DNA from: Thalassospira lucentensis MCCC 1A00383 = DSM 14000
GTDB taxonomy: Bacteria; Pseudomonadota; Alphaproteobacteria; Rhodospirillales; Thalassospiraceae
Reading direction: 5' to 3'
NCBI RefSeq assembly: GCF_000421265.1
Contig: NZ_ATWN01000006.1
Location: forward strand, 186,001-250,000
DNA: 64,000 nucleotides
The notes beneath the pieces are model-generated. The model was not told where the DNA came from. It ran no database searches and worked only from the letters and a program-made list of their open reading frames with translations. Below, piece by piece: positions 44,744 through 54,787 of the stretch (position 1 is its first letter; each line of letters starts with the position of its first letter). The translations under genes and the position numbers were made by a program.

Positions 44744-44760
44744 TTTACGTTAACGTCACA
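44744..44760. promoter_or_regulatory. MerR-type operator candidate, site A (SCP2 promoter)
   Basis: A perfect palindrome ACGTTAACGT (44747-44756) lies about 60 bp upstream of the SCP2 gene. The surrounding 17 bp (44744-44760) are the exact reverse complement of 49001-49017 upstream of the merR gene. Confidence 0.75.
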
Positions 44761-44818
44761 TTCCGCTACAGTTGAGCCACAATCATAAAAAAACACCGTC
44801 TTTAAGAGGGAGGCGTTC

Positions 44819-45115
44819 GTGGATGACATCCTCGAAACTGTAAAACAGAAACTGCCGCAGTTGCGCGGCCTGAATGCTGTTGTCGCATTTGATTGCGGCG
44901 ATGACGGTCAGATTGTGGTCGATGCCACCGGTGATGAGCCGGAAATCACCGATGATGACCTGTCGGATGCGGATTGCATTCTGAAAATCAAAAAAGCCAA
45001 CCTCGAAAAACTGATCAACGGAAAACTCGATCCGATGCTGGCCTTCACCATGGGCAAGCTCAAGATCAAGGGATCCATGGGAGTTGCGGCGAAATTATCG
45101 TCCATGCTGGACTGA
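44819..45115 (+). CDS. SCP2 sterol-carrier domain protein
   Basis: This 98-residue protein is a single SCP2 domain: VVAFDCGDDGQIVVDATG, DADCILKIKKANLEKLINGKLDPMLAFTMGKLKIKGSMGVAAKLSSML. It should be a soluble lipid or acyl-CoA carrier. The GTG start has GGGAGG six bases upstream, and no in-frame ATG fits. It is first in a run with the DUF6134-like and FadL genes and carries the same palindrome in its promoter as fadD and merR, which points to a fatty-acid role. Confidence 0.92.
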   Translation: MDDILETVKQKLPQLRGLNAVVAFDCGDDGQIVVDATGDEPEITDDDLSDADCILKIKKANLEKLINGKLDPMLAFTMGKLKIKGSMGVAAKLSSMLD

Positions 45116-45136
45116 TCTGTTCTACGGGGGAACACC

Positions 45137-45802
45137 ATGCGGAACCGCGTCTTACAACGCACCGTATCGGCTTTGGCGGCAGGATCTGTCGCCCTTCTTA
45201 TGGCGTCATCGGCTTATGCTGGTGACATCCTGAATTTCCGCGTTCTTAAGGACGGGGAACCGATTGGCTATGAGAAAGTCGACATCACCCAAACGGCAAA
45301 TGGCCGCACGGTTGAGGTTGAAACCCTGACCGATGTCCGGGTGCTGTTTCTTCAATTCCACTATGACCACCAGCGGACCGAGCAATGGCACGGAAACCAG
45401 CTGGTTTCGGTCAAAACCACCACCAATGATGACGGCACACACTACACCTATCAGGCGAACTATCAGGCAGATTGCTATGATGTTGCCGGAAAAGGTGTCG
45501 GGAAGCGCAACACCTGTGACGGCGCCTGGCCACTGACCTTGTGGCTTGAAGACGTCACAGACAAATCGCATCTCTATAGCGTCATCAACGCCGAACCTTA
45601 TGCGGTGCAAACCAACAAGATCGGTGACGAAATACTAATGGTCGAAAACCGGGAAACACCGGCGACCCATTATGTAATGTCCGGCGATGTCGAACGCGAC
45701 CTTTGGTATGGCAGCGACGGATATCTTCTTAAAACCAGTTTTAAAAGAAAGGGTTACGACATCGATTTTATCAGAGTCGATGCGATAGCCCTTCAAGAAT
45801 GA
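45137..45802 (+). CDS. Exported DUF6134-like protein
   Basis: The 221-residue protein has a signal peptide (LQRTVSALAAGSVALLMASSAYA, cleavage near residue 28) and a beta-rich periplasmic body beginning FRVLKDGEPIGYEKVDITQTANGRTVEVET and ending WYGSDGYLLKTSFKRKGYDIDFIRV. That pattern recalls DUF6134 and, more loosely, DUF3108 proteins; the family name is from memory and tentative. It starts 22 bp after the SCP2 gene and precedes fadL, so a role in handling or shuttling lipid in the periplasm is a context-based guess. Confidence 0.65.
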   Translation: MRNRVLQRTVSALAAGSVALLMASSAYAGDILNFRVLKDGEPIGYEKVDITQTANGRTVEVETLTDVRVLFLQFHYDHQRTEQWHGNQLVSVKTTTNDDGTHYTYQANYQADCYDVAGKGVGKRNTCDGAWPLTLWLEDVTDKSHLYSVINAEPYAVQTNKIGDEILMVENRETPATHYVMSGDVERDLWYGSDGYLLKTSFKRKGYDIDFIRVDAIALQE

Positions 45803-45857
45803 CAGCGGGCGCTTTGATCAAAGAATTTTGGCGCTTTACGATTAAGGGAGAAACTTT

Positions 45858-47168
45858 ATGTCCAAGTTCAACAAAGGTTGCCTGTGGGGAGCAGCGTCGG
45901 GTACCGCACTTCTATGCGCACTCGCCACCGCCGGAACAGCACAGGCATCAGGCTTTCAGGTCCGCGAAACCAGTGGCACGCTGCAGGGATCGAGTTTTGC
46001 GGGTATGTCGACGCTCTCTACCGATGCGTCCACGATGTCCTATAACCCCGGCACCGTTGGTCAATATAAAGAAACGACCTACAGTACGGGTGTCACCGTC
46101 ATTCGGCCTGTTGCCAAGGCAAAAAATGTATCTGCATCCGGCGGCACGCTAAACAATACGCAAAGCTTTAGCAGTCCAAGCGACGAGGATATGGCAAATG
46201 ACGCTATCGTTCCAAACGCACATGCTGTCTGGAAGCTCAATGATCAATTGAATCTGGGAATGTCCATTACATCGCCGTGGGGCCTTGTAACGGATTACGA
46301 GGGTGACTTCGCAGGTCGGTTTTACGGCACGACTTCCTCGATTAAGACCATCAATATGAAGCCTGTGTTGGCATATCGTTTTGATAATGGTTTGTCGATC
46401 GGTGCAGGGCCACAGATCCAGTATATGGATGCTGAACTCTCAAAAGCTGTAGATAATCTTGCTGGCGCAGGCGAAGGCAGCAGCAAAGTTAGCGGGGACT
46501 CCCTTGATTATGGCTGGACTGCGGGCATCAACTGGGAGATGACCCCATCTACGACATTTGGTCTGTCTTATGTTTCCGAAGTTGAACACGAGCTAAAAGG
46601 TAAAATCGATTTCGACAGCGCTGCGGAAGGTTTTGCAGCACCTTATGTAGATAGAAATGCAACAGCAACCGTCTCAACCCCCGAGTCAGTTACGTTTGGC
46701 ATCGCTCAGAAGCTAGACGAACAATGGACTGTAATGGCAGATGCGCAGTGGACCAATTGGAACACGATTGACACATTAACCTTCAAATTTGATGGTTTGA
46801 CGAACGCTGCCGCTGCGACCTCCAATTCCAGTTCTGATGAATATAAATGGGGAAGTGCGTGGTTCGGATCGCTTGGTGCCCGCTACAAATATGATGAGAA
46901 TTGGGCCTTTACCGGTGGTATTGCATTTGACGAAACGCCCATCAAAACCCAGTACCGCAATGTACGCCTCCCTGACTCCAACAGGTACTGGACATCATTG
47001 GGAGCCTCTTATCAGGTTTCCGATTGGGCAGTGGTCAGCCTCGGCTACACTCATATCTTTGCGGATGAAGCGCGCGTTGACCACACGACCTCGACGCTCG
47101 GCACGTTCCAAGCCGATTACGAGGCCCACGTCGACATCATCGCCCTGCAGGCGAACTTCAAGTTCTGA
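45858..47168 (+). CDS. fadL: FadL/OmpP1/TodX-family outer membrane lipid transporter
   Basis: The 436-residue protein has a signal peptide (cleavage near ATAGTAQA, residue 29) and begins its mature part SGFQVRETSGTLQGSSFAGMSTLSTDASTMSYNPGTVGQYK, the FadL family N-terminus with the hatch-domain NPA-like motif. It ends in a beta signal, VDIIALQANFKF. It should carry long-chain fatty acids through the outer membrane. Its middle (about 46350-46850) is visibly richer in A and T than its neighbours. It sits between the DUF6134-like gene and fadD. Confidence 0.92.
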   Translation: MSKFNKGCLWGAASGTALLCALATAGTAQASGFQVRETSGTLQGSSFAGMSTLSTDASTMSYNPGTVGQYKETTYSTGVTVIRPVAKAKNVSASGGTLNNTQSFSSPSDEDMANDAIVPNAHAVWKLNDQLNLGMSITSPWGLVTDYEGDFAGRFYGTTSSIKTINMKPVLAYRFDNGLSIGAGPQIQYMDAELSKAVDNLAGAGEGSSKVSGDSLDYGWTAGINWEMTPSTTFGLSYVSEVEHELKGKIDFDSAAEGFAAPYVDRNATATVSTPESVTFGIAQKLDEQWTVMADAQWTNWNTIDTLTFKFDGLTNAAAATSNSSSDEYKWGSAWFGSLGARYKYDENWAFTGGIAFDETPIKTQYRNVRLPDSNRYWTSLGASYQVSDWAVVSLGYTHIFADEARVDHTTSTLGTFQADYEAHVDIIALQANFKF

Positions 47169-47187
47169 TCTGCTATACTGTTCGGTG

Positions 47188-47227
47188 CGGGGGAGCGGAT
47201 GCTGCCCCGACCGGGCCCGTTTTTTTT
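47188..47227 (+). terminator. Probable terminator after fadL
   Basis: An imperfect GC-rich hairpin (GGGG...CCCC around 47190-47207) and a CGGGCCCG stretch precede a run of eight T. It separates fadL from the fadD operator. Confidence 0.5.
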
Positions 47228-47236
47228 GCCCGTAAA

Positions 47237-47252
47237 GTGACGTTAACGTAAT
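47237..47252. promoter_or_regulatory. MerR-type operator candidate, site B (fadD promoter)
   Basis: GTGACGTTAACGTAAT contains the perfect ACGTTAACGT core (47240-47249) and matches 15 of 16 bases of the copies at 44744-44759 and 49002-49017. A weaker copy (GAGTTAACGC, 47254-47263) overlaps the fadD ribosome-binding site. Confidence 0.75.
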
Positions 47253-47265
47253 GGAGTTAACGCGA

Positions 47266-48957
47266 ATGAACCAGATGAACGTTCAAGAATCCCCGACCCT
47301 GATCAATGGCGTTGACGTAAGCTCGCCGGTTTACACCTGCCCGGTTCATGAGATTTTCGACCGGGCTGCAGCACGTTTTCCCAATCGTCCCTGTATTGAT
47401 TTTCTGGGTCGGATTTACGATTACAAAACCATCAAGGATCAGATTGATCGCGCCGCCGAAGGCTTTAAACAGCTTGGCATCCGCAAAGGCGACAAGGTTG
47501 GTTTGTGCCTGCCCAATACGCCGTATTATGTGGTGTGCTATTACGCGATCCTGAAATGCGGCGGCGTGGTGGTCAATTTCAATCCGCTGTATGCAAAGCG
47601 CGAGATCGCCTATCAGATCGAGGATTCCGGCTGTCGCCTGATGGTGACCCTGAACCTTAAACAGATTTATCCCAAGGTCGCGGCCTGTCTGGATCAAACC
47701 TGTCTGAAGCGGATTGTCGTTTGTGAAATGAGCGACATTCTGCCGCCGATCAAAAGCGTTCTGTTTTCATTGTTTAAACGCAGTGAACTGGCCGACGTCC
47801 CGACCGATTTGCGCCATATTGCCTATGATCGTGTTATCGGCTGCAAGCCGATTGATACGGCGGCCGATATCGTGGTCGATGATCTGGCAGTACTCCAATA
47901 TACCGGCGGCACGACTGGTCGCCCCAAGGGGGCGATGCTGACCCACGCGAACCTCAGTGCCAATGTTGATCAGCTGACCCGCTGGATGCCAGACGCCAAT
48001 CCCGGATATGAGGTCACGCTTTGTGTCCTGCCGTTCTTCCATGTCTTTGCCATGACCGTGGCGCTTAATACATCGGTCAACATGGGGTCGGAACTTGTTC
48101 TTCAACCCCGCTTTGAGCTTAATGCCTTGCTTAAGGCGCTCGATAAAAAGCGGGCAACGATCTTTCCGGGCGTTCCGACGATCTATACCGCCATCAACAA
48201 TTCGCCAGAAACCCCCAAACACGATCTGTCACACATTCGATGCTGTATTTCAGGCGGTGCGCCGCTTCCCGTTGAGGTCAAACACCGGTTTGAGGAAATC
48301 ACCGGATCGAAAGTCGTTGAAGGATACGGCCTTACCGAAGCCAGCCCGGTTTGTACCTGTAATCCGGTCAAAGGGGTCAACAAGGAAGGCTCAATCGGTC
48401 TGGCCATGCCGGGGGCTGAAATCGAAATTCGTTCGTTAGAACACCATGCTCAACCCGTGCCACTGGGTGAAAAGGGCGAGGTCTGCGTGCGTGGGCCGCA
48501 AGTTATGCCGGGGTACTGGCAAAACCCCGCCGCGACCGAGGAAACCTTTGTCGATGGATGGCTCCGGACAGGCGACGTCGGCTATCAGGATGAAGATGGC
48601 TATACCTTCCTTGTTGATCGGTTGAAGGACGTCATTCTGTGCAGTGGATACAACGTCTATCCCCGCGCGATTGAGGAAGCCCTTTATCTGCATGAACAAA
48701 TCGCCGAGGTCACCTGTATTGGTGTGCCCGACCCCTATCGTGGGCAGGCGCCAAAGGCATTTGTCCGTCTGAAGGATGGCGTGACAGATATTACCGCCGA
48801 AGATTTGCGGGCATTCCTTGATGATAAAATTTCGCGAATCGAAATGCCGCGCGAGATTGAAATCCGTGAAGAACTTCCCAAAACCATGGTCGGCAAATTG
48901 TCGAAAAAAGAGCTGGTTGAGGAAGAGCGCCTAAAACGTGAGGGGACACGTCAATAA
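47266..48957 (+). CDS. fadD: Long-chain-fatty-acid-CoA ligase
   Basis: The 563-residue ANL-superfamily enzyme activates fatty acids to acyl-CoA. Motifs are the P-loop YTGGTTGRPKGAMLTH (about 211-226), GYGLTEASPV, DGWLRTGDVGYQDEDGYTFLVDRLKDVI with the hinge, and the C-terminal catalytic lysine region KTMVGKLSKKEL. ATG 47266 is chosen because GGAG lies nine bases upstream; the frame can be extended five codons to 47251, but that ATG overlaps the operator. It stands alone between two copies of the shared palindrome. Confidence 0.94.
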   Translation: MNQMNVQESPTLINGVDVSSPVYTCPVHEIFDRAAARFPNRPCIDFLGRIYDYKTIKDQIDRAAEGFKQLGIRKGDKVGLCLPNTPYYVVCYYAILKCGGVVVNFNPLYAKREIAYQIEDSGCRLMVTLNLKQIYPKVAACLDQTCLKRIVVCEMSDILPPIKSVLFSLFKRSELADVPTDLRHIAYDRVIGCKPIDTAADIVVDDLAVLQYTGGTTGRPKGAMLTHANLSANVDQLTRWMPDANPGYEVTLCVLPFFHVFAMTVALNTSVNMGSELVLQPRFELNALLKALDKKRATIFPGVPTIYTAINNSPETPKHDLSHIRCCISGGAPLPVEVKHRFEEITGSKVVEGYGLTEASPVCTCNPVKGVNKEGSIGLAMPGAEIEIRSLEHHAQPVPLGEKGEVCVRGPQVMPGYWQNPAATEETFVDGWLRTGDVGYQDEDGYTFLVDRLKDVILCSGYNVYPRAIEEALYLHEQIAEVTCIGVPDPYRGQAPKAFVRLKDGVTDITAEDLRAFLDDKISRIEMPREIEIREELPKTMVGKLSKKELVEEERLKREGTRQ

Positions 48958-48964
48958 ATTCAAT

Positions 48965-49034
48965 GCGTTAACGTCACATCACACACAGAGAAAAAATCAA
49001 TGTGACGTTAACGTAAACTAATTGACGTTAAGTG
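48965..49034. promoter_or_regulatory. Triple operator array upstream of merR (sites C1-C3)
   Basis: Three related elements lie in 70 bp: GCGTTAACGT (48965-48974, 9 of 10), ACGTTAACGT (49005-49014, perfect) and ACGTTAAGTG (49025-49034, partial). The second is embedded in TGTGACGTTAACGTAAA, identical to site A in reverse. The last lies 29 bp from the merR start, consistent with autoregulation. Confidence 0.75.
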
Positions 49035-49062
49035 AAAAATAGGTACCATGGGGGGCGAGAAC

Positions 49063-49467
49063 ATGACGAAATTAGACGACCGGTTTTACACCGTGCCAGA
49101 ACTGGCCGCTGATCTTGGCATCACGCCACGCACCATTCGGTTTTACGAACAAAAGGGTCTCGTAAATCCGCAACGTGCAGGTACCACACGGGTTTATACC
49201 CGGCAGGATCGCGCCAAGATGCTGATCATTCTGCGCGGCAAGCGACTGGGGTTCAGCCTTAGAGAGATCGCTGATTATCTTGATCTCTATGGTGCAGACC
49301 CCACCCAGGCAGAACAGATCAGAATGCTGCTTGGCCAGGTTCGCGAACGGATGTCGGATCTGGAAGAACAACGCCAGGCCCTGGACGTCACATTGGATGA
49401 ATTGCGCGAGATCGAACAACAATCGATTGATGCGCTTAAAGAAAAAGGACTCGATCCGGTTTCGTAA
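49063..49467 (+). CDS. MerR-family transcriptional regulator of fatty-acid degradation (inferred role)
   Basis: The 134-residue protein has the MerR helix-turn-helix (YTVPELAADLGITPRTIRFYEQKGLVNPQRAGTTRVYTRQDRAKMLIILRGKRLGFSLREIADYL, residues 9-73) and a dimerising coiled coil (QIRMLLGQVRERMSDLEEQRQALDVTLDELREIEQ). There is no metal-binding cysteine pair at the C-terminus, so it is not a metal sensor. It resembles LiuR-type MerR regulators of acyl-CoA catabolism. Three palindromes precede it and fadA follows after 45 bp. ATG 49063 with GGGGGG upstream is preferred to ATG 49048. Confidence 0.88.
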   Translation: MTKLDDRFYTVPELAADLGITPRTIRFYEQKGLVNPQRAGTTRVYTRQDRAKMLIILRGKRLGFSLREIADYLDLYGADPTQAEQIRMLLGQVRERMSDLEEQRQALDVTLDELREIEQQSIDALKEKGLDPVS

Positions 49468-49512: not shown

Positions 49513-50649
49513 ATGACCAACGCCGTAATTGCCGGATATGTCCGCTCACCCTTTACCCCGGCCCGCAAAGGGGCTCTTGCCAAGGTCCGTCCTGACGATC
49601 TTGCGGCACAGGTTGTCAAAGGTCTGGTCGAAAAGACCGGGGTCGATCCCAAAGATATCGAAGACCTGATCCTTGGCTGTGCCTTTCCCGAGGGCGAACA
49701 GGGTTTTAACGTTGCCCGTCTGGTGACCTTCCTGGCCGACCTGCCGCGCTCGGTCGCGGGGGTTACCGTCAACCGGTTCTGTGGGTCATCGATGCAGTCG
49801 ATCCATCAGGCGGCGGGTGCCATTGCGATTGGTGCCGGGGATGTCTTTATCTGTGCCGGTGTCGAAAGCATGACGCGCGTGCCGATGATGGGCTTTAACC
49901 CGTTGCCCAACCCGGATCTGTATAAGGAAATGCCCGAGGCCTATATGGGTATGGGCGATACGGCCGAAAATGTTGCGGCGAAATACAGCCTGTCGCGCGC
50001 CGATCAGGAAGCCTTCGCGGTTGAAAGCCACAAGCGGGCTGCATCCGCACAGGCCGCAGGCAAATTCACCGATGAAATCATCCCGATCCAGACCAAAGAT
50101 GGTGTTGTTTCCGAAGATGGTTGTATCCGCGCTGAAACCACCGCGCAAAGCCTTGCCGACCTGAAACCGGCATTCAAGGCCGATGGTGTTGTAACGGCGG
50201 GCACGTCTTCGCCGCTGACCGACGGGGCATCGGCGGTTCTGGTCTGCTCGGAAGACTATGCAAAGAAACACGGCCTGACCCCGCTTGCGCGGATCAAATC
50301 GGTTGCGGTGGATGGGTGTCTGCCGGAAATCATGGGCATTGGCCCGGTGGGTGCCTCGAAAAAGGCCCTGTCACGTGCCGGCCTTTCCGCATCCGATATT
50401 GATGTCACCGAACTGAACGAGGCGTTCTCTTCACAGGCGATGGCCAGCATTTCCGACCTTGGTCTGGACGGGGCAAAGGTCAATATGGACGGCGGTGCGC
50501 TGGCCCTTGGTCATCCGCTGGGTGCGACCGGTGCGCGTATTGTCGGTAAGGCCGCAGCCATCCTGAAACGGGATGGCGGCAAATACGCCCTTGCATCGCA
50601 ATGCATTGGCGGGGGTCAGGGGATCGCGACCATTCTGGAGGCGATGTAA
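49513..50649 (+). CDS. fadA: Acetyl-CoA acyltransferase (3-ketoacyl-CoA thiolase)
   Basis: The 378-residue thiolase shows the nucleophilic Cys in VNRFCGSSMQSIHQAAGAI (about residue 92), VESMTRVPMMG, NEAFSSQA, GGALALGHPLGATGAR with the active His (about 336) and the second catalytic Cys in ASQCIGGGQG (about 366). It cleaves 3-ketoacyl-CoA in beta-oxidation. Its stop overlaps the next start as TAATG, so it is tightly coupled to the hydratase/dehydrogenase. Confidence 0.95.
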   Translation: MTNAVIAGYVRSPFTPARKGALAKVRPDDLAAQVVKGLVEKTGVDPKDIEDLILGCAFPEGEQGFNVARLVTFLADLPRSVAGVTVNRFCGSSMQSIHQAAGAIAIGAGDVFICAGVESMTRVPMMGFNPLPNPDLYKEMPEAYMGMGDTAENVAAKYSLSRADQEAFAVESHKRAASAQAAGKFTDEIIPIQTKDGVVSEDGCIRAETTAQSLADLKPAFKADGVVTAGTSSPLTDGASAVLVCSEDYAKKHGLTPLARIKSVAVDGCLPEIMGIGPVGASKKALSRAGLSASDIDVTELNEAFSSQAMASISDLGLDGAKVNMDGGALALGHPLGATGARIVGKAAAILKRDGGKYALASQCIGGGQGIATILEAM

Positions 50650-52985
50650 TGCCCAACGTAACATCAGACATCAAACAGGTTGCCGTGATCGGCGCCGGTG
50701 TTATGGGGGCTTCGATTGCCGCCCATATCGCCAATTCAGGGACCCCGGTCCTGCTGCTTGATATCGTTCCCGACGGGGCCAAAAACCGCAATGCGGTGGC
50801 CGAGGGTGCGGTTGCCAAAATGCTGAAAACCGATCCGGCCCCGTTCATGTCCAAACGGGTCGCCAAACTGATCACATGCGGCAATATCGACGATGACCTT
50901 GATAAAATTGCCAAATGTGACTGGATCATCGAGGCGGTTATTGAACGCCTTGATATCAAGCAGGACCTGTATCGTAAAATCGATGCCGTCCGTGCCAAGG
51001 GATCGGTGATTTCGTCAAATACTTCGACCATTCCGCTGGCCACCCTGATTGACGGGATGGATAAGACGTTCGCGCAGGACTTCATCATCACCCACTTCTT
51101 TAACCCGCCGCGCTATATGCGTTTGCTGGAACTGGTGGGATCGGATGCGACCCGTGATGGCGTGATCGACATGGTTGCCGATTTTGCCGATCGCAAACTG
51201 GGAAAGACCTGTGTCACCTGCCATGACGAACCGGGCTTTATTGCCAACCGTCTGGGTGTTTACTGGATTCAGGCCGCCATGGTCGAGGCGATGGACCGCA
51301 AGCTTACCGTCGAAGAAGCCGACAGCGTCATTGGCCGCCCATTTGGCATTCCCAAAACCGGGGTGTTTGGCCTGATGGATCTGGTGGGTCTTGATTTGAT
51401 GCCCCATGTGCAATCCAGCATGGCGGGCGCGCTTGATAAATCCGATCCGTTCCACGCCATTTACCGCGAAAGTGAATTGGTGACCAACCTGATTGCCGAT
51501 GGCTATACCGGGCGTAAGGGCAAGGGCGGCTTTTACCGCCTGAACCGCGATGGTGGCGGGAAAGTCAAAGAATCGGTCGATCTGCAAACCGGTAAATTTT
51601 CCACATCCGAAAAGGCCCGTGTTTCAAGCGTGCGTGCGGCAGGCAAAGACCCGCGCAAAATGATGGAAGCATCCGATAAGGGCGGTCAATATGGGCGCGC
51701 TGTCATGGGCAAAACCCTTGCCTATGCCGCCTTCATTGCCGAGGTCGCGGCCAATTCGATTGTCGATGTCGATGATGCGATGAAGCTGGGCTATGCATGG
51801 AAAACCGGCCCGTTTGAGCTGATTGATGCCATTGGCGTTGATGTGCTGATTGCGATGCTTGAGGAAGACGGCGTTGAAATCCCGGCATTGCTCAAAAAGG
51901 CGGCTGGCAAATCGTTCTATAAGGTCGAAGATGGACAGCTTTTCTATCTTGGCTTTGACGGGGAATATACCGCCGTCACCCGCCCGGATGGCGTCATCCT
52001 GCTTGAAGACATCAAACGCAAATCCGAACGGGTTGCCGGCAACCGTGCCGCATCGCTTTGGGATATTGGCGATGGGGTTGCCTGTCTTGAATTCCATACC
52101 AAGATGAACGCGCTTGATGCCGACGTGCTTGGTGCAATCAAAACATCGATCCGAACTGTCAAAAAGCAGTTCAAGGCGATGGTGATCTATAACGAAGGCA
52201 GCAATTTCTCGGCCGGGGCCAACCTTGGTCTGGCATTGTTTGCCGCCAATATCGCCGCATGGCCGGAAATCGAGAACCTCGTTGAAACCGGTCAGGAAAC
52301 CTATAAGGCGCTTAAATATTCACCCTTCCCGGTTGTTGGCGCGCCAAGTGGTCTTGCCCTTGGTGGCGGCTGTGAGGTTCTACTTCATTGTGACGCGGTT
52401 CAGGCGCACGGGGAAACCTATATCGGGTTGGTTGAACCCGGTGTTGGCCTGATCCCGGCATGGGGCGGATGTAAGGAAATGATCCGTCGCTGGACGGAAA
52501 ATCCGAAATTCGTCAAAGGCCCGATGGCCCCAAGTGCCAAGGCGTTTGAAATCATCTCGGTCGCGACCGTTGCCAAATCGGCGATGGAAGCCAAGGAAAA
52601 CCTGTTTTTCCGCGAATCAGATGGCATCACCATGAATCGCAACCGTTTGCTGGCCGATGCCAAGCAACGCGCGCTTTCGATGGTAAAGGACTACGAAGCG
52701 CCCGAGGAATTCACCTATCGCCTGCCCGGTGAAAGTGCCCGTGTGGCGTTTGAAATGGCGGTCGATGGTTTCCACCGTCTTGGCAAGGCCACCGATTACG
52801 ACCGTGTCGTGGCCGGGGAACTGGCTAAGGTTCTGGCCGGTGGCGATACCGACGTCACCGAAGAACTGTCCGAAGACGACATGCTTGAAATGGAACGCGA
52901 AGGTTTCATGCGGCTGGTCCGCAATGAAGGCACCATGGCCCGGGTCGAGCATATGTTGCTGACCGGCAAGCCGTTGCGGAATTAA
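50649..52985 (+). CDS. Bifunctional 3-hydroxyacyl-CoA dehydrogenase / enoyl-CoA hydratase, FadN-type domain order
   Basis: The 778-residue protein has the NAD-binding dehydrogenase first (VAVIGAGVMGASIAAHIANSG, residues 11-31; TCHDEPGFIANRLG; a second dehydrogenase C-domain up to about 430) and the crotonase-like domain last (GVACLEFHTKMNALD, about 475; FSAGANLGLAL; SGLALGGGCEVLLHCDAV, about 565; GVGLIPAWGG). This is the reverse of E. coli FadB and matches Bacillus FadN. It carries out hydration and oxidation in beta-oxidation. A frame extension upstream into fadA is rejected because fadA ends at the ATG. Confidence 0.93.
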   Translation: MPNVTSDIKQVAVIGAGVMGASIAAHIANSGTPVLLLDIVPDGAKNRNAVAEGAVAKMLKTDPAPFMSKRVAKLITCGNIDDDLDKIAKCDWIIEAVIERLDIKQDLYRKIDAVRAKGSVISSNTSTIPLATLIDGMDKTFAQDFIITHFFNPPRYMRLLELVGSDATRDGVIDMVADFADRKLGKTCVTCHDEPGFIANRLGVYWIQAAMVEAMDRKLTVEEADSVIGRPFGIPKTGVFGLMDLVGLDLMPHVQSSMAGALDKSDPFHAIYRESELVTNLIADGYTGRKGKGGFYRLNRDGGGKVKESVDLQTGKFSTSEKARVSSVRAAGKDPRKMMEASDKGGQYGRAVMGKTLAYAAFIAEVAANSIVDVDDAMKLGYAWKTGPFELIDAIGVDVLIAMLEEDGVEIPALLKKAAGKSFYKVEDGQLFYLGFDGEYTAVTRPDGVILLEDIKRKSERVAGNRAASLWDIGDGVACLEFHTKMNALDADVLGAIKTSIRTVKKQFKAMVIYNEGSNFSAGANLGLALFAANIAAWPEIENLVETGQETYKALKYSPFPVVGAPSGLALGGGCEVLLHCDAVQAHGETYIGLVEPGVGLIPAWGGCKEMIRRWTENPKFVKGPMAPSAKAFEIISVATVAKSAMEAKENLFFRESDGITMNRNRLLADAKQRALSMVKDYEAPEEFTYRLPGESARVAFEMAVDGFHRLGKATDYDRVVAGELAKVLAGGDTDVTEELSEDDMLEMEREGFMRLVRNEGTMARVEHMLLTGKPLRN

Positions 52986-53002: not shown

Positions 53003-54787
53003 ATGGCAGAATATAAAGCACCCTTACGCGACATGCGCTTCGTCCTGACCGAGCTGTTTGATTTTAACGACATCAATCAGATGCCCGGTTGCGAGGATTT
53101 CACCCCCGACGTTGTCGATGCGGTTCTCGAAGAAGCCGCCAAGGTCTGTGAAGAGGTCCTTTATCCGATCAACCGGTCGGGCGACGAGGAAGGCTGTCAC
53201 TGGGATGACGGGGTTGTTACGACCCCCAAAGGATTTAAGGAAGCCTATAGAACCTTTGCCGAAGGCGGCTGGACCGGCATTGCCTGTGACCCGACCTATG
53301 GCGGGCAAGGTGCGCCAAAATCGATCAATGCGCTGGTCGAAGAAATCATATGTTCGAGCAACCTGTCCTTTGGCATGTATCCCGGCCTGTCTTTCGGGGC
53401 CTATGCCGCCCTGCACAGCCACGCATCAGACGCATTGAAGGACAAATTCCTGCCCAAGATGGTCGAAGGTACGTGGGCGGGCACCATGTGCCTGACCGAA
53501 CCACATTGCGGGACCGATCTTGGTATTATCAAATCCAAGGCCGAACCGCTTGATGACGGGTCTTATGAAATCACCGGGACCAAGATTTTCATCTCGGCCG
53601 GGGAACATGATCTGACCGAAAACATTATCCATCTCGTGTTGGCAAAACTGCCTGACGCGCCCAAGGGCACCAAAGGCATTTCGCTGTTTCTTGTCCCGAA
53701 ATTCATGGTCGGGGATGATGGATCACTGGGTGATCGCAACGCGGTCAAATGTGGTTCCATCGAACACAAGATGGGCATCAAGGCATCATCGACCTGTGTG
53801 ATGAACTTTGATGGTGCGGTTGGCTATCTGGTCGGTGAACCCCATCAGGGCATGCCCGCGATGTTCACCATGATGAACCAGGAACGCCTGTCGGTCGGTA
53901 TTCAGGGGCTTGGTCTTGGTGAGGCCGCCTATCAGGGCGCACGCGCCTATGCCAAGGACCGCCTTCAGGGCCGGGCACTTACGGGGGCGAAATCGCCTGA
54001 CAAGGCGGCTGATTCGATCATTGTGCATCCCGATGTGCGTCGCATGTTGCTAACAGCGAAGGCCACTAATGAAGGCTGCCGGGCGATGGGCATGTGGGTG
54101 GCACGCGCCCTTGATACCGCCAAACATCACGATGACCCGATCAAACGCGAAGAAGCCGATGAATTTGTTCAGCTGATGACCCCGATTGTAAAAGCCCTGT
54201 TTACCGATTGGGGTTTTGATAACGCCAATCTCGGTGTGCAGGTCTTTGGCGGGCATGGCTATATCCGTGAATGGGGCATGGAACAATATGTCCGTGATGC
54301 CCGCATTGCCCAGATTTACGAAGGCACAAACGGCATTCAGGCCCTTGATCTGGTTGGGCGTAAAATGCCCGCCAAGGCAGGCCGTTACCTGCGCCGGTTC
54401 TTCCACCCGGTACAGGAATATATCGAAGCCAACGTATCGAACGGGGAACTGGGCGATTACGTTCAGCCGCTGGCCAAGGCGTTCATGCGCCTGCAACAGA
54501 TCACCGGTGAACTGGCCCAGCGCGGCATGAAAAACCCCGATGAAGCCGGGGCCGCCGCATCTGAATTCCTGCGTCTGTTTGGCTTGGTCGCGGTTGGCTT
54601 TATGTGGGCCCGCATGGCCGAAATCGCACTGGCCAAACGCGATGATGACCCGGACGGGTTCTATAAGGCCAAGCTGATCACGGCGAAATTCTATATGGAA
54701 CGGGTTTTGCCGCAATCAGGGGCGCTGTTTAGTCAAATGATGTCGGGCTCCAGCAACATGATGGCGCTTGATGAGGAGCTGTTCTGA
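53003..54787 (+). CDS. Acyl-CoA dehydrogenase (FadE/DmdC-type, about 600 residues)
   Basis: The 594-residue flavoenzyme introduces the first double bond of beta-oxidation. It has the three-domain fold with AGTMCLTEPHCGTDLGIIKSKA (FAD-binding), YEITGTKIFISAGEHD, NQERLSVGIQGLG and the base-bearing RIAQIYEGTNGIQALDLVGRK (Glu near residue 440), plus the extra C-terminal helical domain seen in DmdC-type members. It follows the FadN-type gene by 17 bp, giving a thiolase-FadN-FadE order like the Bacillus fadNAE operon. Confidence 0.93.
   Translation: MAEYKAPLRDMRFVLTELFDFNDINQMPGCEDFTPDVVDAVLEEAAKVCEEVLYPINRSGDEEGCHWDDGVVTTPKGFKEAYRTFAEGGWTGIACDPTYGGQGAPKSINALVEEIICSSNLSFGMYPGLSFGAYAALHSHASDALKDKFLPKMVEGTWAGTMCLTEPHCGTDLGIIKSKAEPLDDGSYEITGTKIFISAGEHDLTENIIHLVLAKLPDAPKGTKGISLFLVPKFMVGDDGSLGDRNAVKCGSIEHKMGIKASSTCVMNFDGAVGYLVGEPHQGMPAMFTMMNQERLSVGIQGLGLGEAAYQGARAYAKDRLQGRALTGAKSPDKAADSIIVHPDVRRMLLTAKATNEGCRAMGMWVARALDTAKHHDDPIKREEADEFVQLMTPIVKALFTDWGFDNANLGVQVFGGHGYIREWGMEQYVRDARIAQIYEGTNGIQALDLVGRKMPAKAGRYLRRFFHPVQEYIEANVSNGELGDYVQPLAKAFMRLQQITGELAQRGMKNPDEAGAAASEFLRLFGLVAVGFMWARMAEIALAKRDDDPDGFYKAKLITAKFYMERVLPQSGALFSQMMSGSSNMMALDEELF

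Follow-up and report, generated by a model that had tools for sequence, protein, structure and literature searches.

We analysed a 64,000-nucleotide stretch of the Thalassospira lucentensis genome (4.74 Mb in size; contig NZ_ATWN01000006.1, positions 186,001 to 250,000), hereafter called the window, in which copies of a short palindrome stand upstream of genes for fatty-acid uptake and breakdown and of the gene for a MerR-family regulator. The genes form a block at 44.8-54.8 kb, all on the plus strand, in the order SCP2, DUF6134, FadL, FadD, MerR, FadA, FadB and FadE. The first encodes a 98-residue SCP2-domain protein with a GTG start (44819-45115; PF02036, E=8e-20), followed by a DUF6134 protein (45137-45802; PF19630, E=3.8e-38), a FadL/OMPP1-type outer-membrane transporter (45858-47168; PF03349, E=1.6e-88) and a FadD-type acyl-CoA synthetase (47266-48957; PF00501, E=6.1e-96), which scores highest against NCBIfam models of long-chain-fatty-acid--CoA ligases without reaching their cut-offs. 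Downstream lie the 134-residue regulator (49063-49467; PF13411, E=3.4e-17; PF09278, E=2.5e-12), a FadA-type thiolase (49513-50649; TIGR01930, E=8e-133, above the cut-off), a FadB-type 3-hydroxyacyl-CoA dehydrogenase/enoyl-CoA hydratase (50649-52985; PF02737 and PF00378) and a FadE-type acyl-CoA dehydrogenase (53003-54787; PF12806, E=3.6e-36, and PF00441). The regulator belongs to the MerR family, with PF13411, PF00376 and PF09278 all above cut-off. Its translation contains no cysteine and hence none of the cysteine ligands that mark a metal sensor; cysteine was also absent from 70 of 88 homologous MerR sequences, counted over fad and other loci together.

The core of the palindrome, ACGTTAACGT, occurs three times in the window, at 44747 upstream of SCP2, at 47240 upstream of fadD and at 49005 upstream of merR. 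An earlier note, made by reading the letters of this stretch, had given these positions correctly and had seen no other copy; our scan of both strands agreed. The mean expectation from 100 dinucleotide shuffles was 0.05 copies, and none of the shuffles reached three. A 16-mer, GTGACGTTAACGTAAW, is exact at 44744-44759 (minus strand), 47237-47252 (plus) and 49002-49017 (plus). The operator before SCP2 spans 44744-44760 on the minus strand (TTTACGTTAACGTCACA as written on the plus strand), that before fadD 47236-47252 on the plus strand (AGTGACGTTAACGTAAT), and the main merR operator 49001-49017 on the plus strand (TGTGACGTTAACGTAAA); all three hold the exact core. As the note had observed, the SCP2 and merR operators are exact reverse complements of each other, and 15 of 16 bases agree in the fadD copy. 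A second merR copy of the 16-mer, with two mismatches, precedes the main operator by 40 bp, at 48962-48977 on the minus strand. This is the variant that the note had placed at 48965, with one mismatch in the core; of the two further variants that it listed, the one at 49025 is a half-site only (GACGTTAA), as is the one at 47254 (GTTAACGC). The 16-17 bp palindrome that it described is perfect over a 10-bp core, and over the full 16 bp the symmetry extends to six of eight pairs.

The sites are strongly conserved within the genus. We compared 22 loci with MerR proteins 84-96% identical to that of the window, 21 from Thalassospira and one from a Rhodospirillales metagenome-assembled genome. All eight genes of the block were present in every one of them, and the exact core was found before fadD and merR in 22 of 22 and before SCP2 in 18 of 22, the four inexact cases comprising one with ACGTATACGT and three with two changes. 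In alignments of 23 sequences per site, the mean column identity of the 16-bp motif exceeded that of the remaining columns at fadD (1.000 versus 0.794), merR (0.989 versus 0.769) and SCP2 (0.976 versus 0.725). Moreover, the exact 14-mer TGACGTTAACGTAA occurred in all 13 genus genomes scanned, with 54 matches versus one for the reversed control, and in three of eight other genomes of the order (five matches versus none). The copies are not due to chance. Of the outcomes that the earlier note had set against its own proposal, a random genome-wide spread is contradicted for exact copies by these controls, and loss of the motif from relatives that keep the genes was not seen in the genus.

Beyond the genus, MerR matches at E<=1e-15 were present in 149 of 297 genomes of the order, Thalassospira included. 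We examined 44 loci, namely 40 non-genus stretches chosen by match strength or motif and four named loci, and 36 of them qualified as fad loci by a FadA thiolase above 65% and a MerR above 50% identity. Many of these fad loci keep the order SCP2-DUF6134-FadL-FadD-MerR-FadA-FadB-FadE. The pattern TKACGTWWACGTMA occurred 33 times in the 36 fad loci (606 kb) versus zero for the reversed control, corresponding by our own count to 30 places once overlapping pairs were merged; 32 of the 33 sites lie within 400 bp before a protein match of SCP2, DUF6134, FadL, FadD or MerR, and 22 of the 36 loci carry at least one. In a scan of the 44 loci with filtered matches, relaxed variants of the motif turned up in some loci without a strict site. 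At the level of the class, MerR matches at E<=1e-20 were found in 94 of 289 genomes; in a sample of 20 stretches (L257, which has the same two sites as L082 and a contig equal in length to that of L082, being treated as a repeat of it), FadA, FadB or FadE was present at 50% or more in 15, and the pattern occurred 17 times, in 15 stretches, versus none in the control, frequencies that, like those in the order, are no unbiased rates because similarity to the window MerR decided which loci were taken. The DUF6134 gene recurs beside SCP2 and FadL in many fad loci of the order, which suggests that its product may take part in fatty-acid uptake. Its N-terminus, read by eye, resembles an export signal.

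The three units differ in how the operator sits relative to the predicted promoter. At SCP2, a possible promoter read by eye, TTTACG-N17-TACAGT at 44744-44772 (four of six consensus positions in each hexamer), overlaps the operator, which would cover the -35 element and a spacer of normal length, an arrangement that fits steric repression. At merR, a consensus scan gave a likely promoter, TTGACG-N16-TACCAT at 49022-49049 on the plus strand, whose columns are conserved in the alignment and whose -35 element holds the half-site GACGTTAA; the scan listed three sites in the region versus 4.1 in shuffles and is weak by itself. TTGACG starts 4 bp past the operator, and its offset from the core is unchanged in all 23 sequences. 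The -10 element is uncertain, because a start 7 bp past TACCAT would, read by eye, omit the ribosome-binding site. In the classical MerR mechanism, the operator lies within a spacer of 19-20 bp and the long spacer is untwisted; here, the operator precedes the predicted -35 element and the presumed spacer measures 16 bp, a layout that does not suggest that mechanism. The upstream merR copy, with up to three core mismatches, is found 40-41 bp away in 18 of 23 sequences, a spacing near four helical turns, so that several dimers could bind one face of the DNA. At fadD, 21 bp separate the operator centre from the start codon downstream. Columns 47237-47252 are invariant and belong to 27 consecutive columns without variation among the 23 sequences, a run that ends in the half-site GTTAACGC (47256-47263, plus strand) adjoining the ribosome-binding site; this run may partly reflect the Shine-Dalgarno sequence. 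In the stretch 47251-47268, an in-frame ATG at 47251 lies within the operator tail, ATGGAGTTAACGC is invariant in all 23 sequences, and the start at 47266 is GTG in 12 and ATG in 11 of them. We also surveyed 52 operators scoring at least 14/16 before SCP2, FadL, FadD or MerR in other genomes, some of them close kin. Within 36 bp, TTGAC followed 10 of the operators at offset 4 and three at offset 10, all 13 at FadL (of 18 FadL operators); offsets 15 and 18 gave one case each, and the mirror direction none.

We propose that the palindromes are probably operators through which the MerR protein encoded at 49063 governs the fatty-acid units, repressing them and being released on demand. A MerR-family dimer would bind TKACGTWWACGTMA-type palindromes before a putative SCP2-DUF6134-fadL uptake operon, before fadD and before its own putative operon merR-fadA-fadB-fadE, would keep these units low, and would leave the DNA when fatty acids have to be broken down, in the simplest case by binding an acyl-CoA or a related thioester. 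The pattern of sites and genes makes a regulon linking MerR to the fad genes very likely; repression with release by acyl-CoA is a plausible mode of action. Acyl-CoA is the natural guess for the signal of a cysteine-free MerR of 134 residues in a fad setting, and the presence of a site before merR in every relative fits self-control. The earlier note had proposed such a regulon, with MerR repressing these three units until an acyl-CoA releases it. The proposal is supported in part, in that the sites mark a co-conserved set of eight genes; the regulon appears to be larger than three units, and the sites are not private to this MerR.

Several observations count against this proposal. Searches that admitted mismatches gave no enrichment: 14 cores with up to two mismatches in the window against 15.7 expected, 30 versus 39 control matches with up to one mismatch in the whole genome, and 52 versus 49 in a second whole-genome scan with the degenerate pattern TKACGTWWRCGTMA including one-mismatch matches. 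Information resides only in exact and near-exact copies. The strict pattern was absent from 14 of the 36 fad loci outside the genus. The SCP2 promoter candidate was not listed by the consensus scan, and the merR operator, directly upstream of the presumed -35 element, occupies a position also open to an activator. No promoter was recognised at fadD between the operator and a T-run read as the fadL terminator, which the scan likewise did not list. Finally, near variants of the operator precede the genes of two MerR paralogs, so the motif alone does not name its binder.

These paralogs, at C1:751220 (52% identical) and C2:242207 (45%), carry TGACGTAAGCGTAA and TTACGTAAGCGTAA in their respective promoters and open a different reading, in which three MerR proteins (the fad MerR, a LiuR-type one and one beside an acyl-CoA ligase) share a family of sites and the breakdown of fatty acids and of branched-chain compounds is cross-wired. 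We regard this as a real possibility, somewhat short of an even chance. It gains from the wider distribution of the sites. The pattern TKACGTWWRCGTMA has ten zero-mismatch places in the genome, the three window sites among them, whereas by our own estimate a 23-bit pattern should have roughly one chance match. The exact window 14-mer precedes a row of thioesterase, acyl-CoA dehydrogenase and thiolase genes (C6:65655) and a second thioesterase-domain gene (C1:465706), and TTACGTAAGCGTCA stands before a carboxyltransferase gene (Pfam PF01039) that we read as methylcrotonyl-CoA carboxylase beta; its one NCBIfam match is methylmalonyl-CoA decarboxylase alpha, below cut-off. At C6:65655 and C1:465706, the operators overlap and contain ACGT three times, in 6-bp steps; this triple form recurs in several genus genomes and in two genomes of the order outside the genus. 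A similar form precedes an acyl-CoA dehydrogenase-thiolase cluster near a MerR of another clade in L249, L250 and L252, and in G013 (L255) the dehydrogenase is clustered with a carboxyltransferase, which fits leucine breakdown. The two paralogs agree with the window MerR at 37 and 42 of the 68 helix-turn-helix residues, RxIRFYE and TRxY being among the shared parts.

The relationships among the regulators were examined in a tree of 88 MerR sequences, all kept by the length filter. The second paralog and the acyl-CoA-dehydrogenase-linked MerRs form one clade (support 99/99), and the Thalassospira fad MerRs a separate group (89/71). The first paralog falls among the fad sequences, two sequences from fad loci (L082 and L235_13966) fall near the 99/99 clade on long branches, and the fad-block sequences overall need four changes on the tree, many forks of which are unresolved. 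Against a fully shared system, the paralog operators differ consistently from the fad core, with TAAGCGT or TWWGCGT versus the fad TTAACGT in 12 of 12 genus loci, our genome included (ACGTAAGCGT versus ACGTTAACGT), and the fad block holds the window MerR and neither paralog. A further-reaching version, which strikes us as rather improbable, joins the paralogs to the promoter layout: all three would read one operator family whose half-sites lie in promoter register, the TTGACG -35 element being a half-site 4 or 10 bp after the palindrome, so that competition among paralogs would tune fatty-acid and branched-chain breakdown jointly and not as separate regulons. The specificity of the window MerR relative to its two paralogs is the most interesting point raised by this locus.

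Other matches in the genome were less readily placed. Among the ten places of TKACGTWWRCGTMA, a TTACGTTTACGTAA palindrome just before a DUF2889 gene (C3:235176-235189) marks a possible extra member of the regulon, and for the place at C6:156622 no associated gene was identified. A palindrome with one mismatch, its ACGT units recurring every 6 bp, lies at C4:122076-122089, before genes for an AAA ATPase and a VWA/CoxE protein. The exact 12-mer at C2:297474, one of six in the genome, was taken as chance, lying inside a gene that we read by eye as mutL.

MerR-family proteins are often activators, and the regulator might instead be an activator, or have both roles, at the merR and fadL promoters, recruiting polymerase upon a fatty-acid signal from a position directly upstream of the -35 element. 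The fixed 4-bp distance to TTGACG at merR throughout Thalassospira and the offset-4 and offset-10 cases at FadL in other genomes would suit such a role. We nevertheless consider it unlikely: the merR -35 element itself carries a GACGT half-site, where a second dimer would block it, the SCP2 operator covers the presumed -35 element, the predicted merR promoter does not show the classical MerR layout, and the available text of PMC3223726 describes LiuR as a repressor. The assignment of the motif to MerR rests on co-occurrence, and the palindrome might belong to an unrelated regulator with MerR as a bystander; this is very improbable, given that, within one genome, members of the site family precede three paralogous merR genes and that they accompany MerR-fad loci across the class. 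Chance, or a conserved element with no regulatory role, would agree with the lack of enrichment once a mismatch is admitted, and can practically be dismissed in view of the exact copies (54 versus one in the genus, 33 versus none outside).

A literature search, with most subscription journals outside its scope, found neither work on this regulator in Thalassospira nor an experimental study of MerR control of fad genes in alphaproteobacteria. The locus is compact and comes from a marine genus, and its three promoters would allow binding, direction and signal to be tested; specificity among MerR proteins is directly testable through the paralogs and their near-identical sites.

Among known regulators of the pathway, FadR and PsrA are derepressed by acyl-CoA or fatty acid. 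The available part of PMC5343134 assigns FadR (GntR), PsrA (TetR) and FadP (TetR) to protein families other than MerR and lists FadR among the factors absent outside the gammaproteobacteria. For alphaproteobacteria, in which FadR is reported to be missing, the Thalassospira sites provide a set of strongly conserved operators that would serve fatty-acid control. The closest solved sequences are those of the CueR/MerR metal sensors (CueR, E=4.3e-10), which share the DNA-binding family; unlike them, the window MerR is cysteine-free and its operator at merR lies outside the presumed promoter spacer.

In work by Kazakov and colleagues from 2009, LiuR orthologs are said to have been predicted to control fatty-acid degradation in 22 alphaproteobacterial species; if so, the Thalassospira regulon would be a further, well-conserved example of that kind. 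The operator presumably also resembles the published LiuR motif. According to the text available, LiuR is a MerR-family repressor (PMC3223726) that governs the use of branched-chain amino acids across many proteobacteria (PMC3223726, PMC5343134); PMC5343134 lists it for 103 genomes of 15 taxa and, in that part, places it under branched-chain amino acids only, and for Rhodospirillum rubrum, a LiuR with ILV boxes, one of them before its own gene, has been proposed (available text of PMC7238569). Like LiuR, the window MerR is a small MerR-family regulator linked to acyl-CoA breakdown, with shared operators before catabolic acyl-CoA genes and before its own gene. It differs in its predicted targets, which are fatty-acid uptake and beta-oxidation. 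It is linked to fad and not to liu or ivd genes and falls outside the 99/99 clade, in a tree without a named LiuR; a LiuR reference was sought among L083-L138 (acyl-CoA dehydrogenase, carboxyltransferase, FadA, FadB or FadE above 50%), and none qualified. Taken together, the locus resembles a kind of control that is already known but has seldom been tested, with an operator that is conserved well beyond the genus.

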